64,000 nucleotides of DNA from Shimia sagamensis (GTDB lineage: Bacteria; Pseudomonadota; Alphaproteobacteria; Rhodobacterales; Rhodobacteraceae): contig NZ_FXTY01000004.1 in assembly GCF_900182745.1 (NCBI RefSeq), positions 124,001-188,000 on the forward strand, in the 5' to 3' direction. A model generated the notes under the pieces. That model did not search any database, had not been told where the DNA came from, and saw only the letters and a list, made by a program, of their open reading frames with translations. Positions 56,579 to 63,768 of the stretch are shown in pieces; position 1 is the first letter of the stretch; the number at the start of each line of letters is the position of its first letter. Both the position numbers and the translations under genes were made by a program.

Positions 56579-57832
56579 ATGTCCAACGATCTTTTCAACA
56601 GCTTTATGACCGGCCCCGATGAAAATGGCCGGTTTGGCGACTTTGGCGGGCGCTTTGTCAGCGAAACGCTGATGCCGCTGATCCTTGAACTGGAAGCGGA
56701 GTATGAAAAGGCCAAGGACGATGACAGTTTCTGGGCCGAGATGGATGATTTGTGGAAACACTATGTGGGCCGTCCTAGCCCGCTGTATTATGCCTCTCGT
56801 ATGACCGAAGAGTTGGGTGGTGCGAAGATCTACCTGAAGCGGGACGAGTTGAACCACACCGGCGCGCATAAGGTGAACAACGTGTTGGGCCAGATTATTC
56901 TGGCACGCCGCATGGGTAAGACGCGGATCATTGCCGAAACCGGTGCGGGTCAGCACGGTGTGGCAACCGCAACCGTCTGTGCGAAGTTTGGCCTCAAATG
57001 TGTTGTTTACATGGGCGCGCATGATGTGCAGCGTCAGGCGCCAAACGTGTTCCGGATGCGCCTGCTGGGCGCGGAAGTGGTGCCAGTGACCTCCGGTCGT
57101 GGCACGCTCAAGGACGCGATGAATGATGCGCTGCGTGATTGGGTGACCAACGTGAACGACACGTTCTACTGCATCGGCACAGCGGCGGGTCCGCACCCCT
57201 ATCCGGCGATGGTGCGCGACTTCCAGTCGATCATCGGCAAAGAAGTACGCTGGCAGTTGGCGGAGCAGGAAGGTGAAGGCCGTCTGCCGGACACGGTGAT
57301 TGCGGCGATTGGTGGCGGTTCAAATGCGATTGGGCTGTTTTACCCGTTCCTGGATGAGAAATCGGTCAACATCATTGGTGTAGAGGCCGGTGGTCGTGGT
57401 GTGAATGCGAAGATGGAACACTGTGCCTCGCTCTCTGGCGGACGCCCGGGCGTGTTGCATGGCAACCGCACCTATCTGTTGCAGGATGACGATGGTCAAA
57501 TCCTTGAGGGCTATTCGATTTCAGCAGGTCTGGACTATCCGGGCATTGGGCCGGAGCACAGCTGGCTGAACGACATTGGTCGCGCGCAGTATGTGTCGAT
57601 CACAGACAAAGAGGCGCTGGAGGCGTTCCAGTTCTCCTGTTCGATGGAAGGTATCATTCCGGCGCTGGAACCATGCCACGCGCTGGCACATGTGATGAAG
57701 ATCGCGCCCACATTGCCAAAGGATCATATTCTGGTGATGAACATGTGTGGGCGTGGCGACAAAGATGTGCAGACCGTGGCGCGGCATCTTGGGTTTGATA
57801 TGTCCGACACCGAAGGCCGCGCGGCGGACTAA
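56579..57832 (+). CDS. trpB: Tryptophan synthase beta chain
   Basis: TrpB joins indole and serine with PLP. The 417-residue protein begins at ATG 56579 with AAGGGAG upstream. Motifs: [49 protein letters not shown] with the PLP Lys (about residue 98), [15 protein letters not shown] and [14 protein letters not shown]. trpA is not in the window. It has its own terminator. Confidence 0.97.
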
Positions 57833-57856
57833 ACCCACCTTATGGAATGATGGAAT

Positions 57857-57883
57857 AGAGCGCTCTTTGGAGCGCTCTTTTTG
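57857..57883 (+). terminator. Rho-independent terminator after trpB
   Basis: A 9-bp perfect stem (agagcgctc 57857-57865 with gagcgctct 57870-57878), a 4-base TTTG loop and a T-tract, 24 bases after the stop. Confidence 0.92.
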
Positions 57884-58025
57884 CTTTGGGCAGGGCTGCC
57901 TATACCAAAGTGTGCTGCGGTGAACTGATGCGCACAAAAAAAGGGGCAGGTTTCAAACATCATGAAAAGAGGGCCAGAAGCAATTGGATTGCGCCGCCCG
58001 CAAAGCCTTTAGGAAAGGACATCTC

Positions 58026-58235
58026 ATGGCATTTATGAACACACCCGCAGTGCAGCCTTCCATGATGAGCCGCGCCAAAAAACTGGCAGAACGGATTGTC
58101 GCCTCCATGCAGGCACAGGGATATCTGGACATTGAGTTCATACTGACCGAAGGGCAGCTGAAGATTGTGGCAAGTAAAACAGGTGGGGCGCCGCAAACTC
58201 TGTACCTGATGCTGCCAGAGAGAGCACTTCGCTAA
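58026..58235 (+). CDS. Hypothetical small protein, 69 residues
   Basis: ATG 58026 has an AGGAAAGGA ribosome-binding site. The sequence has a helix (SRAKKLAERIVASMQAQGY, about 15-33), a short strand pair (DIEFILTEGQLKIVAS) and the end LYLMLPERALR. There is no signal peptide or membrane segment. I do not recognise the family. It marks the beginning of a stretch of accessory-looking genes. Confidence 0.55.
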   Translation: MAFMNTPAVQPSMMSRAKKLAERIVASMQAQGYLDIEFILTEGQLKIVASKTGGAPQTLYLMLPERALR

Positions 58236-58752
58236 GTTTTGGGCCTGCAGAAGCACATTAATTGAAGCGCGCGTACGGGTAGCATAGTTGCGCAAGTCAG
58301 GGCGGAATTTGAGAGTGGGTAAAATGTCGGTTAGAAGGCGCCCAAGACTACAGTCAAAATCTTCGGCTGGCATAAGGCGCCTGGCAAAGGGACCGAGCTT
58401 GTCGGTTGCAATGGATACGGTGCAAGAGCCGGTTGAAGCCGAAGCCGTGTTGACCGAGTACCGCGTTAAGTTAGTTACAAAGGGTCTGTTGGGGGAGCTC
58501 TTGTTGGGACTTTCTGGTGGGTTGCCCTCCAATGCGTACGGCGCAAACCCCACAAAATCAGAGGGACACACCTTGCGTGAGCGCCGTCGATTTGTGCTGT
58601 AGAGCCCCTAAACCTAAGTTTAGAGGCCTAAACGCGCAGTGAATGAGGGGGGGATTAAACTTTGTGACAATGGCGGTCGTGTGCCCAATCAGAAAAACAG
58701 GAGGGGCAATGCCGCATGGGTTCATGTGGCCCCAACTGACAAAGGACATTTT
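58236..58752. other. 517-base region without a convincing gene
   Basis: Both strands have open frames here (for example a + frame 58324-58602 and a long minus frame), but neither has a good start, a family pattern or normal composition. Near its right end (58608-58623) is a palindrome ctaaac-ctaa-gtttag with a further cctaaac at 58627-58633, about 130 bases before the acidic protein gene; it is a candidate operator. The region may be a decayed gene or a long leader. Confidence 0.4.
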
Positions 58753-59268
58753 ATGACACGTCTGCTTTTGACCTCCACCGCTGTCGCGCTTGGCCTATCC
58801 ACCACCGCCTTTGCGGATTCCTTTAAAAACCGGGTTGAACTTTCGTTTGAGCGTGCGGGCTATTCTGATGTGACTGTTACGGTCAAGGATGGTGTCCTCA
58901 CAGTGCGCTCCAACAAGGATGGCCTGTCTATTGAAAGTCTCTACGAGGTGGCAGGTGAAGAGTTGCTGCGACATGGAGAGTATGACGGCGAGGACGATGA
59001 CGAAGACGATGATGATGAAGACGGCGATGATGATCATGATGACGACAATGACGATGATCACGACGACGATGATGATCACGACGACGATGATGATCATGAC
59101 GACGATGATGATGACGATAGCGAAGACGACGATAGCGAAGACGATGAAGGCGAGGATGACGCCAGCGATGACGACGACGCCCGTGATAACGATGATGAAG
59201 AAGATGACGATGATGAAGAAGATGATGACGATGATGGCGATGGAGACGACGAAGAAGATGACGACTAA
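58753..59268 (+). CDS. Exported PepSY-like protein with Asp/Glu/His-rich tail
   Basis: 171 residues from ATG 58753 (AAAGGA upstream). A Sec signal peptide (about 1-21, ending TAFA) is followed by a small PepSY-like half (about 22-76: RVELSFERAGYSDVTVTVKDG, LTVRSNKDGLSIESLYEV, GEELLRHGEYD), and then about 95 residues almost only Asp and Glu. In the first half of the tail His occurs at regular spacing (HDDDDDHDDDDDHDDDD). The tail is a likely Ca2+ or other metal binder, or a charged surface polymer. Paralogous to the next gene; the function is unknown. Confidence 0.7.
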   Translation: MTRLLLTSTAVALGLSTTAFADSFKNRVELSFERAGYSDVTVTVKDGVLTVRSNKDGLSIESLYEVAGEELLRHGEYDGEDDDEDDDDEDGDDDHDDDNDDDHDDDDDHDDDDDHDDDDDDDSEDDDSEDDEGEDDASDDDDARDNDDEEDDDDEEDDDDDGDGDDEEDDD

Positions 59269-59271
59269 AAC

Positions 59272-59286
59272 CAGGCCTTTGGCCTG
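59272..59286 (+). terminator. Short hairpin after the first acidic gene
   Basis: caggcc (59272-59277), TTT, ggcctg (59281-59286), just 3 bases beyond the stop. It has no T-tract and may only stabilise the mRNA end. Confidence 0.4.
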
Positions 59287-59349
59287 ATTGCGGCGTGATT
59301 GCCATAGAACTTCGTGATAGGGAATTACGAGGGACCATCACCGCAACCC

Positions 59350-59381
59350 ACCGGCGCTGGCATTGGTTGGCGCCGGTTTTT
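59350..59381 (+). terminator. Terminator-like hairpin directly before the second acidic gene
   Basis: accggcgc (59350-59357) pairs with gcgccggt (59370-59377), followed by TTTTTG. The T-tract ends 14 bases before ATG 59396. It can stop transcription from the first gene or act as an attenuator for the second, as no separate promoter can be fitted between the hairpin and the ATG. Confidence 0.65.
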
Positions 59382-59395
59382 GTTGGAATAAATGT

Positions 59396-59902
59396 ATGAA
59401 AAAATTGGTCAAAACGCTTTCCGTACTTGCTGTCGTGAGCGCATGCCTGGCAACTCCAGCTCTGGCGGATGGTCGTGTGGATGCAATCACACGCCAACTT
59501 GCCGATCAGGGTTTTGGCCAGATCAAGGTCTCTCGCACCTTCCTCGGGCGTGTGCGGGTTGAGGCGCTGCGTGAAGGGCGGGAACGGGAGATTATTTTCA
59601 ATCCCCGGACCGGGGAAATTCTGCGGGACTACTGGGATGAAGACTCACCTGGCAGCGGTGGCTGGCTGCTGGGCGGAGGCGTGCGCGAAGAAGACGACCA
59701 AGAAGATCGCGCAGGGACCCGGCGGGACAGAGAAGAAGACCGTGACGACGATGATGACGATGATGACGAAGATCGCGACGATGGCGATGACCGTGATGAA
59801 GACGACCACGGCGGTGGTGACGACGATAATGATGACGACGGTGATGACGACGACGACGGTGATGACGACGACGACGATGATGATGGTGATGACGATGACT
59901 AG
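59396..59902 (+). CDS. Exported PepSY-domain protein with acidic tail
   Basis: 168 residues with a Sec signal peptide (about 1-25, ALA before DGRV), a PepSY domain (about 26-82: VDAITRQLADQGFGQIKVSR, RVRVEALREGREREIIFNP, RTGEILRDYWDED) and a tail that is first Glu/Arg-mixed (about 98-120) and then nearly all Asp with a few Gly and His. The layout parallels the gene before it, so the pair arose by duplication. PepSY domains often inhibit peptidases or act in sensing at the cell surface. The next gene encodes a membrane-bound regulator 36 bases downstream. Confidence 0.75.
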   Translation: MKKLVKTLSVLAVVSACLATPALADGRVDAITRQLADQGFGQIKVSRTFLGRVRVEALREGREREIIFNPRTGEILRDYWDEDSPGSGGWLLGGGVREEDDQEDRAGTRRDREEDRDDDDDDDDEDRDDGDDRDEDDHGGGDDDNDDDGDDDDDGDDDDDDDDGDDDD

Positions 59903-59938
59903 AAACTGTGGTCGTGCTGTGCTTATGAGGTCGACCGC

Positions 59939-60430
59939 GTGAACCGGCCGTTTTTACTTTTTGCGCTGGTGGCCTTGCAGGGGGTCTGTGCGTTTTTCTT
60001 TGTCGCGGACATCACGCTGACAGTGGTTGGGGCGCGGTCGTCTCCGATCAGTTGGCAAACCCGAGAGCTACTGGAAATTGGCGCCTCTTTGGGGTTGTTG
60101 CTGGGTGTTGTTCTGGGCTGGCTGGCGCTGCGACGCACGCTGGCGCAGAAGGCGCAGGTGGAGGAGAGCCTGCGAGGGGTTCAGAGTGCGTTTCGGGAGC
60201 ATCTAGAGGCGACGTTTCAGGTGTGGTCTCTGACGCCGGCTGAGCGGGACGTGGCGTTATTCACCATAAAAGGTATGTCGATTCAGGAGATTGCGGCGTT
60301 GCGCAACACATCTGACGGCACCGTGAAAGCCCAAAGCAATGCAATTTACCGCAAGGCAGGGGTCAGTGGACGGACACAGCTGCTCAGCTTGTTTTTGGAG
60401 GACTTGTTGGCGGAAGACGTCGACACTTAG
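59939..60430 (+). CDS. Membrane-anchored LuxR/NarL-type regulator
   Basis: A 163-residue protein from GTG 59939 (GAGG upstream) with two membrane segments (about 5-28 and 47-66), a short linker helix and a C-terminal LuxR helix-turn-helix (about 97-160): LTPAERDVALFTIKGMSIQE, IAALRNTSDGTVKAQSNAIY and RKAGVSGRTQLLSLF. It has no receiver domain, so the signal probably comes through the membrane part, directly or through the acidic PepSY proteins encoded just ahead. The arrangement suggests a small surface-sensing regulatory unit. Confidence 0.78.
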   Translation: MNRPFLLFALVALQGVCAFFFVADITLTVVGARSSPISWQTRELLEIGASLGLLLGVVLGWLALRRTLAQKAQVEESLRGVQSAFREHLEATFQVWSLTPAERDVALFTIKGMSIQEIAALRNTSDGTVKAQSNAIYRKAGVSGRTQLLSLFLEDLLAEDVDT

Positions 60431-60451
60431 CGTGTTGATCTGAGTTGCGGG

Positions 60452-60835
60452 TCAGCTGGCTTGGGTGACATCGTGCTCTTGCAAGACGCGCAGTGGCACA
60501 ATGTCTAAAGCGCGGACATGAGTGGCGGCGAGGTTGACCTTGGGGGCGCAGCCTTCGTCATGGGCTTGCAGGAAGCGGGCGGCGCAGAGGCACCATGATT
60601 CCCCCGGTTTCAGGCCAACAAAGTTGAAGTTTGGCCGCGGTGTCGAGAGATCATTGCCAACATATTTGGAATAGGCCAGAAACTCGGCGGTCATGACGGC
60701 GCAGACGGTGTGACTGCCTTGATCCTGATCACAAGTGTTGCACGCTCCGTCGCGGAAAAATCCGGTCAGAGGGTCAGTGGAACAGGATGCGAGCGTGTCG
60801 CCCAGCACATTCACGGAGCTGTCTTTTTCTACCAT
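60452..60835 (-). CDS. DUF2237 family protein
   Basis: 127 residues from ATG 60835. The DUF2237 pattern is clear: NVLGDTLASCSTDPLTGFFRDG, ACNTCDQDQGSHTVCAVMT, FLAYSKYVGNDLSTP, SWCLCAARFLQA and APKVNLAATHVRALDIV. The six or more conserved Cys suggest a metal- or disulfide-containing small protein. The family is uncharacterised. It is convergent with the LuxR-type gene. Confidence 0.87.
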   Translation of the reverse strand: MVEKDSSVNVLGDTLASCSTDPLTGFFRDGACNTCDQDQGSHTVCAVMTAEFLAYSKYVGNDLSTPRPNFNFVGLKPGESWCLCAARFLQAHDEGCAPKVNLAATHVRALDIVPLRVLQEHDVTQAS

Positions 60836-60960
60836 GGCCCGACTTTGGCATAGGGCGATTGCCGCAAGCAACGGTGTTGGCGCCGTGATGGGCTGGAAAA
60901 ACTTAAATGGTCATACAGGTTTGGATTGACCGCTCGAGTTGCACGGTGGAGCATGGGCGC

Positions 60961-62990: not shown

Positions 62991-63024
62991 GATGTCGGAT
63001 CGTTGATATCCAATGGAGACCAAA

Positions 63025-63768
63025 ATGTTCAGACCTATTTTACTCAGCGCTGTTTCCGGCGTTTTCGCTTCCGCTGCACTTGCTGGAGGCAACCACGCCA
63101 CCCATCAGGCCGACGCTGTAACCTCAGAAGCCAAAGTTGGTGTCGTTGAGGCCTTTGATATCCTCGCGGCGCATGTTCATCGCTCAGGCAACACAGTGAC
63201 TTTCCACATGACCACGAATGGTATCGCTGGCGCAGATAAACCGGCCGTCAATGGGGCTGTTGGCGGGGCAGATGTCTGGTCTTATGTGTGGCCAACATCT
63301 CTTGATCCCAGCGTTGTGGGATTTGATGAAGGGGCGGGCATTCTGGCGATGGCCGCGACCAGCCATCCAGACTTTGACGACACGCCGCTGTACGATGAAA
63401 ATCTTGATGGGGACACTGGCAATGACGGCGGGGTGTGGCACAGTCACTGGGTGGTGTTAGCGCCCACAGAAGCTTGTGGAGAAGGAGCTCTTGCCGTGAA
63501 GGACATTCCCGAGGGTGCAACACCAAACCTGCCAGCAACTTGGCCAGGATTTCCGATTTTGCTGGACAGTCCTGGTTTCACGCCAGTGTTTGATGGACCC
63601 GAGATTACCGTGAACGCCGCGATTATGGGCGGTGCAGAAGGCGCGTCCTATGATGGGGTGACTGCCGCGCTTCGCGTGAATGAAAGTGTGCACGCACCGC
63701 TGCTTTGTGTGACGGATGTGTTTGACGTAGCCTCTGGTGACCTATCCTTGCCTGGACGGGTCGACTAA
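63025..63768 (+). CDS. Exported protein of unknown function, divergent from marR
   Basis: 247 residues from ATG 63025 (TGGAGA six bases upstream; an in-frame ATG 12 bases earlier is weaker). A Sec signal peptide (about 1-20, ALAGG) is followed by a beta-rich body with VGVVEAFDILAAHVHRSGNT, GGADVWSYVWPTS, TSHPDFDDTPLYDENLDGD, GVWHSHWVVLAP and two Cys (ACGEGAL, LLCVTD) that may form a disulfide. Several His and Asp could bind metal. I do not recognise a family. It is followed by a terminator. Confidence 0.75.
   Translation: MFRPILLSAVSGVFASAALAGGNHATHQADAVTSEAKVGVVEAFDILAAHVHRSGNTVTFHMTTNGIAGADKPAVNGAVGGADVWSYVWPTSLDPSVVGFDEGAGILAMAATSHPDFDDTPLYDENLDGDTGNDGGVWHSHWVVLAPTEACGEGALAVKDIPEGATPNLPATWPGFPILLDSPGFTPVFDGPEITVNAAIMGGAEGASYDGVTAALRVNESVHAPLLCVTDVFDVASGDLSLPGRVD

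Follow-up and report, generated by a model that had tools for sequence, protein, structure and literature searches.

Two putatively exported proteins with PepSY-like heads and acidic tails and a LuxR-type regulator with a predicted membrane anchor are encoded side by side in Shimia sagamensis. Comparison with related sequences indicates that these three genes are a real unit, conserved across the family, and supports an array of TAAAC palindromes as the unit's conserved operator. We lean toward the view that the unit is a self-regulating transmembrane LuxR/PepSY circuit for exported, often calcium-binding, acidic proteins, and that it takes part in envelope sensing.

Genes of the operon

The window is the whole stretch of 64,000 nucleotides that we analyzed. 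The genes and other features around the operon, apart from the operator itself, are:

58026..58235, + strand: small gene for a third PepSY-A-like domain that lacks both signal peptide and tail and is apparently cytosolic
58324..58602, + strand: small ORF 5' of the operator, weakly conserved
58753..59268, + strand: gene A, exported PepSY-like protein with an Asp/Glu tail, 171 amino acids
59350..59377, + strand: 12-bp hairpin in the gap from A to B, with a T run after it; might act as a partial terminator
59396..59902, + strand: gene B, exported protein with a basic PepSY head and an Asp/Glu tail, 168 amino acids
59939..60430, + strand: LuxR-type regulator, predicted to be membrane-anchored, GTG start, 163 amino acids

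The first-pass annotation had described two exported, acid-tailed proteins followed by a two-span LuxR protein without a receiver, and we confirmed this arrangement, with the LuxR gene starting 36 bases past the stop codon of gene B. All three genes are real, since the heads of A and B and the LuxR protein are conserved (dN/dS of 0.05 for each against the related locus L134) while synonymous sites are highly diverged. The closest named record of the LuxR protein, 98% identical, is from an uncultured Shimia MAG.

The small gene at 58026..58235, which lies between trpB and the operator, is a neighbor outside the three-gene core. It is kept in L134, L135, L138, and L139, and it is under purifying selection in the Shimia group (dN of 0.11–0.23 versus dS of 1.5–1.6 against L134, L135, and L138). 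Its match to our PepSY-A model is weak, at 16 bits. The ORF at 58324..58602 is doubtful as a true gene, judging from its comparison with relatives: it is 38.7% identical to its counterpart in L135 with a dN of 0.715, and tblastn found no match to it in L134 or L138.

The hairpin between A and B is also present in L133, L134, and L135, with paired changes in L134, and it may cause B and LuxR to be expressed less strongly than A. We rejected a terminator at this position as a feature of the family, as a hairpin was found in only 5 of 56 intergenic gaps from the family (1 in the shuffled control). No match to a sigma-70 promoter was found in 57800–60950. Elsewhere in the window, at 63013–63768, an exported-looking protein of 251 amino acids adjoins a MarR-type regulator; Pfam gave no match to it at E ≤ 1, and NCBIfam gave nothing convincing.

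Conservation of the operon

Of 248 genomes sampled from the family, 146 have a LuxR relative (E ≤ 1e-10). The profile of the PepSY-B head (E ≤ 1e-6) matched proteins in 109 of the genomes, every one of which also has LuxR (hypergeometric 1.6e-38, uncorrected for kinship). That PepSY-B always occurs with LuxR bears out the idea that the three genes form a unit. The same holds when starting from the regulator. If LuxR regularly occurred apart from PepSY genes, this would argue against a unit; instead, 190 of 213 distinct LuxR relatives have a match to a PepSY model within 1.6 kb upstream (LuxR at E ≤ 1e-30, at least 1.3 kb of upstream sequence, PepSY domain at E < 0.05), and reading of the loci found further LuxR relatives with a PepSY neighbor that the models missed. 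No PepSY neighbor was found for three LuxR relatives in the family (L088, L103, and L106), nor within about 1.5 kb of four from other families (L236, L237, L239, and L241). The gene trpB lies within 4 kb upstream of LuxR in 146 of the 213 loci, many of which are too short to show it. (Some genomes are in both the sampled and the named set of loci, and related species do not count as independent cases.) A search for LuxR across the phylum (398 genomes, E ≤ 1e-25) found matches in 29 genomes; 8 of these belong to other families of the same class.

LuxR and the basic-headed B protein are usually accompanied by a second exported acidic protein, whose gene comes first in the operon and differs between loci. 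It may encode a PepSY domain with an acidic tail, an EF-hand with an acidic tail, or an acidic protein without a recognized domain. The EF-hand that takes the place of PepSY scores above the Pfam cut-off in L030 and just below it in L081.

Proteins A and B

The last 96 residues of A (by our choice of boundary) include 64 Asp and 14 Glu, and the last 75 residues of B include 44 Asp and 7 Glu. The calculated pI of the B head is 9.9, versus 4.9 for A. Four arginines of the B head are invariant (R52, R54, R64, and R77).

A PepSY-type domain had been assigned to both proteins, and this stands for B in a weakened form and for A only by way of intermediates. B scores 18.6 bits against Pfam PepSY_2 (PF13670), below the gathering cut-off of 24.3, which is why we call it PepSY-like. 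Among 30 orthologues of B, 5 match PepSY_2 at E ≤ 0.01 (best 6.6e-6), and the tail-less relative L130 passes the cut-off with 47.7 bits. The predicted structure of B has a helix and four strands (pLDDT of about 95 for the head), which may correspond to the fold of PepSY_2 proteins; B differs from them in its score and in its long disordered acidic tail. With Foldseek, B had no PDB match at E ≤ 0.001, for which the disordered tail is the probable cause. A profile of B gave 11 matches among PDB sequences up to E = 1, none of which matches the PepSY head as a whole; the best two (E = 6e-4 and 8e-4) are to a mitochondrial termination factor and cover only profile positions 98–154, which is the tail. 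Gene A matches nothing in Pfam or NCBIfam, and even our PepSY-A profile scores it at −1.9 bits. Intermediate sequences in the relatives L138 and L139 suggest that it is kin to the PepSY-A proteins.

The acidic tail is not universal: among 60 listed B proteins, Asp and Glu make up from 9% to 74% of the residues past position 85. A simple pattern finds a twin-arginine-like start in 51 of the 221 B proteins, which would fit the export of a folded, and perhaps loaded, protein.

We also considered that the acid-tailed proteins might respond specifically to lanthanides, as a system akin to LanPepSY or lanmodulin. LanPepSY from Methylobacillus flagellatus is, like B, an exported PepSY protein, and according to the available part of PMC11845868 it is periplasmic and binds rare earths; by analogy, B could bind cations. 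The EF-hands in the first gene of L030 and L081 would also fit. However, LanPepSY has two PepSY domains, according to that part of the paper, where B has one, and the same part mentions no membrane LuxR partner. Furthermore, the protein of L012, which we had read as EF-hand-like, has no Pfam match. A lanthanide response seems very unlikely to us.

The predicted membrane regulator

The LuxR protein passes the cut-off for GerE (PF00196) with 29.8 bits versus 23.5, and no receiver domain was found in Pfam at E ≤ 1, as a response regulator would have. Its predicted structure (mean pLDDT of 85.5) consists of a helix at residues 4–30, a short loop at 31–38, a continuous helix at 39–95, and a GerE fold at 100–158. 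In this model, the hydrophobic helices (4–30 and 39 onwards) are in the same chain as the DNA-binding domain, and the long helix would run from the membrane straight into it. The two spans were assigned from hydrophobicity and the predicted structure. The loop has an invariant proline (P36) and ends with an invariant tryptophan (W39), and E43 and E46, just beyond, are invariant as well. The top fold matches in the PDB are to the LuxR/NarL-type proteins StyR, VraR, RcsB, CviR, and NarL (best E = 7.3e-3, none at E ≤ 0.001).

The nearest family in NCBIfam is that of the LIC13292 regulators (NF047608), which are of similar length; residues 76–160 of LuxR match positions 81–165 of the 166-position model. 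However, the score of 64.3 bits is far under the cut-off of 200.

A conserved operator

The first-pass annotation had proposed a palindrome at 58608–58623 as a candidate regulatory site. Our comparisons support it as the first and strongest site of a three-part array (none of the sites is assigned to a strand):

58608..58623: operator site 1, CTAAACCTAAGTTTAG, conserved in relatives
58628..58633: operator site 2, half-site CTAAAC, from column conservation at offset +20
58656..58671: operator site 3, degenerate TAAAC...GTGACAAT, from column conservation at offset +47

Across 60 aligned sites, the operator is one strong TAAAC-N4-GTTTA palindrome plus two weaker copies. These rows were selected for an exact first site, so the conservation of that site in the alignment is by construction; sites 2 and 3 are free of that choice. 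In many relatives, site 2 is a degenerate TAAACCnnnGGTTTA, and the family form of site 3 is TAAACCnnnGGTCAAT. In the window operon, the operator lies 144 bases ahead of the first gene, and its position in relatives is likewise before that gene.

By chance, the window alone would contain 0.77 matches with no more than two mismatches, and one was found, which is exact; the palindrome stands above chance because of its conservation, not because of this count. In the 4.5 Mb genome, YTAAACN4GTTTAR has a single site, which is 58608–58623 (the reversed control has 3), and the looser TAAACN4GTTTA has three sites. One of these, at C2:622623, sits at the start of a coding sequence, and we take it to be due to chance.

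The exact TAAACN4GTTTA occurs upstream in 58 of 73 named loci and in 74 of 124 sampled ones; the rest of the named loci, 894,425 bases, contains it once. If one mismatch is allowed, the operator is present in 65 of the 71 named loci and in 59 of the 71 sampled ones versus 4 of 332 control windows, and no such site was found in the other 6 named and 12 sampled loci. (For these counts, we required LuxR at E ≤ 1e-55 and enough upstream sequence, and 9 named and 35 sampled loci that are too short were set aside.) This conservation supports, at the level of sequence, the view that the palindrome array is the operator of the three-gene unit.

A composite pattern of the operator has one match each in 34 of 248 genomes (2 of 248 for the reversed control), and 32 of the 34 matches are within about 2.1 kb upstream of LuxR. 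The other two are on short contigs: one (L320) has a PepSY-like acidic gene 140 bases behind it, and the other (L319) is cut off. The window genome has no match to the composite pattern because its third site differs. In another genome, a composite operator-like array at L310 2460 (TAAACTGGGGTTTA plus TAAACCATCGGTCTA) has no evident exported target, and the LuxR operon of that genome has no exact site in the 1.5 kb that we examined.

Which protein binds the operator

The membrane LuxR is the putative binder, on evidence that is indirect but consistent. The exact operator is present for 124 of 167 LuxR proteins whose recognition helix has the type AQ[TS], versus 10 of 48 with other types, and for 0 of 9 in which histidine replaces the glutamine; this association is confounded by kinship, as the tree of LuxR proteins shows. 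Two loci of the cytochrome b561 type (L112 and L118, with the helix KAQS) have the operator about 110 bases before the PepSY gene. Where a LuxR relative adjoins a ferric-reductase-like gene, the exact palindrome is absent.

Alternatively, another regulator might bind the palindrome while this LuxR acts elsewhere. This could account for the LuxR orthologues without a site and for the sites away from the operon in G033, G059, and G115, which are genomes with no LuxR match. However, all 34 genomes with the composite site have both LuxR and PepSY-B, the presence of the operator tracks the type of recognition helix, and YTAAACN4GTTTAR is unique in the window genome. So we consider a different binder to be quite unlikely.

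Other candidate targets

With a tighter version of the single palindrome, we found 49 sites in 124 genomes, of which 34 were placed at the operon and 15 elsewhere. Away from the operon, the palindrome is rare. Six of these 15 are 122–160 bases before a start codon that has a plausible ribosome site and belongs to an exported or membrane protein; we assigned these targets by reading and without a chance rate, and a scan with the reversed pattern also gives matches. In G047, the target looks exported and has four EF-hands (EF-hand_5, 72.3 bits), and in G040 it is an RTX calcium-binding protein (205 bits). Three other targets have no Pfam match: a protein rich in Asp, Ser, Gly, and His with a signal-like start (G077), a Ser/Asp-rich protein with a twin-arginine-like start (G061), and a Gly/Ser-rich protein with a signal-like start (G041). 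In the window genome, the target is a ferric-reductase-like flavocytochrome. The site in G104 lies farther out, 295 bases before a protein that is 25% Asp and has no Pfam match. At the remaining 8 of the 15 sites, no exported or membrane gene was found at 122–160 bases.

In several genomes, the acidic first gene was not found in the operon, and the palindrome precedes an unlinked exported protein. Namely, in G040, G041, G047, and G077, no acidic first gene was found beside B and LuxR, as if it had been moved or replaced in trans; G104 and G061 retain the first gene. Also, in loci from two genera (L305 1777–2502 and L306 2526–3397), the palindrome and a calcium-binding gene come just after a carB-like gene, in the same direction. 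The calcium-binding protein has an EF-hand in one genus and is of the RTX type in the other (the carB-like genes were named by reading).

It had also been suggested that the unit senses contact with a surface. Exported acidic proteins do adjoin a membrane regulator, and one target away from the operon is an RTX protein, a class that includes surface proteins. However, in the loci that we read by eye, no gene for an adhesin, pilus, or biofilm recurs beside the unit, and we found nothing that points directly at a surface signal. We now regard a surface-contact sensor as extremely improbable.

Redox-protein relatives of the unit

The operator of the ferric-reductase-like gene in the window genome is 125 bases before the gene. 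It is kept at −125 in four close relatives, with changes in its central bases, and among 39 loci checked, the exact operator precedes this gene only in the window genome and these four. Homologues of the gene (E ≤ 1e-60) are present in 28 of 246 genomes and in 11 of 21 genomes of the genus. Five of these 11 have the exact site; all five, which are close relatives, have the acid-tail type of LuxR. A sixth genome with an acid-tail LuxR (G635) has a degenerate site at the gene, and in the other five, which are without an acid-tail LuxR, no site was found there.

Related regulators are found next to membrane heme proteins. In one branch, PepSY, LuxR, and a ferric-reductase-like flavocytochrome occur together, and in G015, G142, and G644 the ferric-reductase-like gene is directly behind a LuxR relative. 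A sister branch has three genes in a row, namely those for a tail-less PepSY protein, a cytochrome b561, and LuxR (PF01292 at 69.1 bits and PepSY_2 at 47.7 bits). PepSY, cytochrome b561, and membrane LuxR genes are also consecutive in L231, L240, L302, and L303. A literature search found nothing that joins PepSY with cytochrome b561. In a tree of 123 sequences, which includes the acid-tail group in part only, the acid-tail type is apart from the b561 and ferric-reductase types, with support values of 0.78 and 0.89, and the b561 locus L112 falls with the ferric-reductase branch. Neither the b561 nor the ferric-reductase branch gave a clear second operator in a de novo search for palindromes (at best 3 of 10, with a shuffle maximum of 2, and 1 of 6). 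At L258 (1020–3759), a ferric-reductase-like gene is flanked by two PepSY-like genes, one of them acid-tailed, and lies beside a response regulator, so that the same partners occur near a different kind of regulator.

We also considered that the signal might be the redox state, or the reduction of metal, at the membrane instead of a load of cations, with the acid-tailed branch being derived. The LuxR family would then work with PepSY proteins and membrane heme-b proteins. This would account for the sister branch with b561, for the ferric-reductase-like genes behind LuxR in three genomes and behind the operator in close Shimia relatives, and for the tree, in which the acid-tail type stands apart from the other two. 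Also, PepSY-type membrane proteins (PF03929 and PF16357) are linked to iron reduction in the available part of PMC8238504. However, in the acid-tail loci that we read, no redox gene was seen within the operon. The ferric-reductase-like gene is in just 28 of the 246 genomes, the exact operator is at that gene only in the window genome and its four close relatives, and the other targets away from the operon are exported proteins, two of which are calcium-binding by profile. The heme-protein partners do add to the redox reading, which we nevertheless consider unlikely. The cation reading, with calcium as the simplest choice, gains because EF-hand and RTX proteins sit behind the same operator.

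Proposed role of the unit

We propose that a dimer of the membrane LuxR binds the operator array and so controls its own operon. Our guess, with a slight preference, is that it would activate the operon rather than repress it. In some genomes, one more gene might be under its control, for example one for an exported protein of the EF-hand, RTX, or low-complexity kind; in the Shimia group, this gene may be that of the ferric-reductase-like flavocytochrome. On the other side of the membrane, the PepSY head of B would touch the short periplasmic side of LuxR (P36, W39, E43, and E46) and would set the activity of LuxR through the single long helix into the DNA-binding domain. Such a contact between the charges of LuxR and the invariant arginines of the B head might be competed for by the acidic tails, or else be released when the tails bind cations. 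In the periplasm, the tails would take up cations, in the first place calcium, or metal, and their load would change B's hold on LuxR. The main output would be a higher or lower amount of these exported acidic proteins themselves, which would make the circuit a homeostatic loop.

Some regulators of the ToxR, TcpP, and CadC class have a partner protein. Here, the DNA-binding domain is of the LuxR/GerE type and is C-terminal, after two predicted spans, and the partner would be a PepSY protein. The transmembrane regulators in the part of PMC10269533 available to us have a membrane segment and a DNA-binding domain in one polypeptide, as the LuxR protein is predicted to have; the main text of that review has no word starting with LuxR, GerE, or PepSY. 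The PepSY/LuxR unit is not described in the available parts of PMC10269533, PMC11996626, PMC8238504, and PMC11845868, and our literature searches, whose scope left out most subscription papers, found no published description of it. We place the unit with the known one-component membrane regulators, as a variant that we did not find described. Tentatively, PepSY plus membrane LuxR might make up an undescribed alphaproteobacterial class of transmembrane control, with exported PepSY proteins as the periplasmic partner, exported polyanions and calcium binders as the main products of a closed homeostatic loop, and an operator (and, in sister branches, also partners) shared with membrane heme proteins.

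If our proposal is correct, then the operon with PepSY-B and LuxR in 109 of 248 genomes of the family would be a defined signaling system, whose operator is known and whose candidate targets make a short list. The PepSY domain would be given a testable function: it would serve a one-component regulator as its periplasmic arm. And the circuit would offer a way in to the role of the exported poly-Asp proteins of these bacteria.
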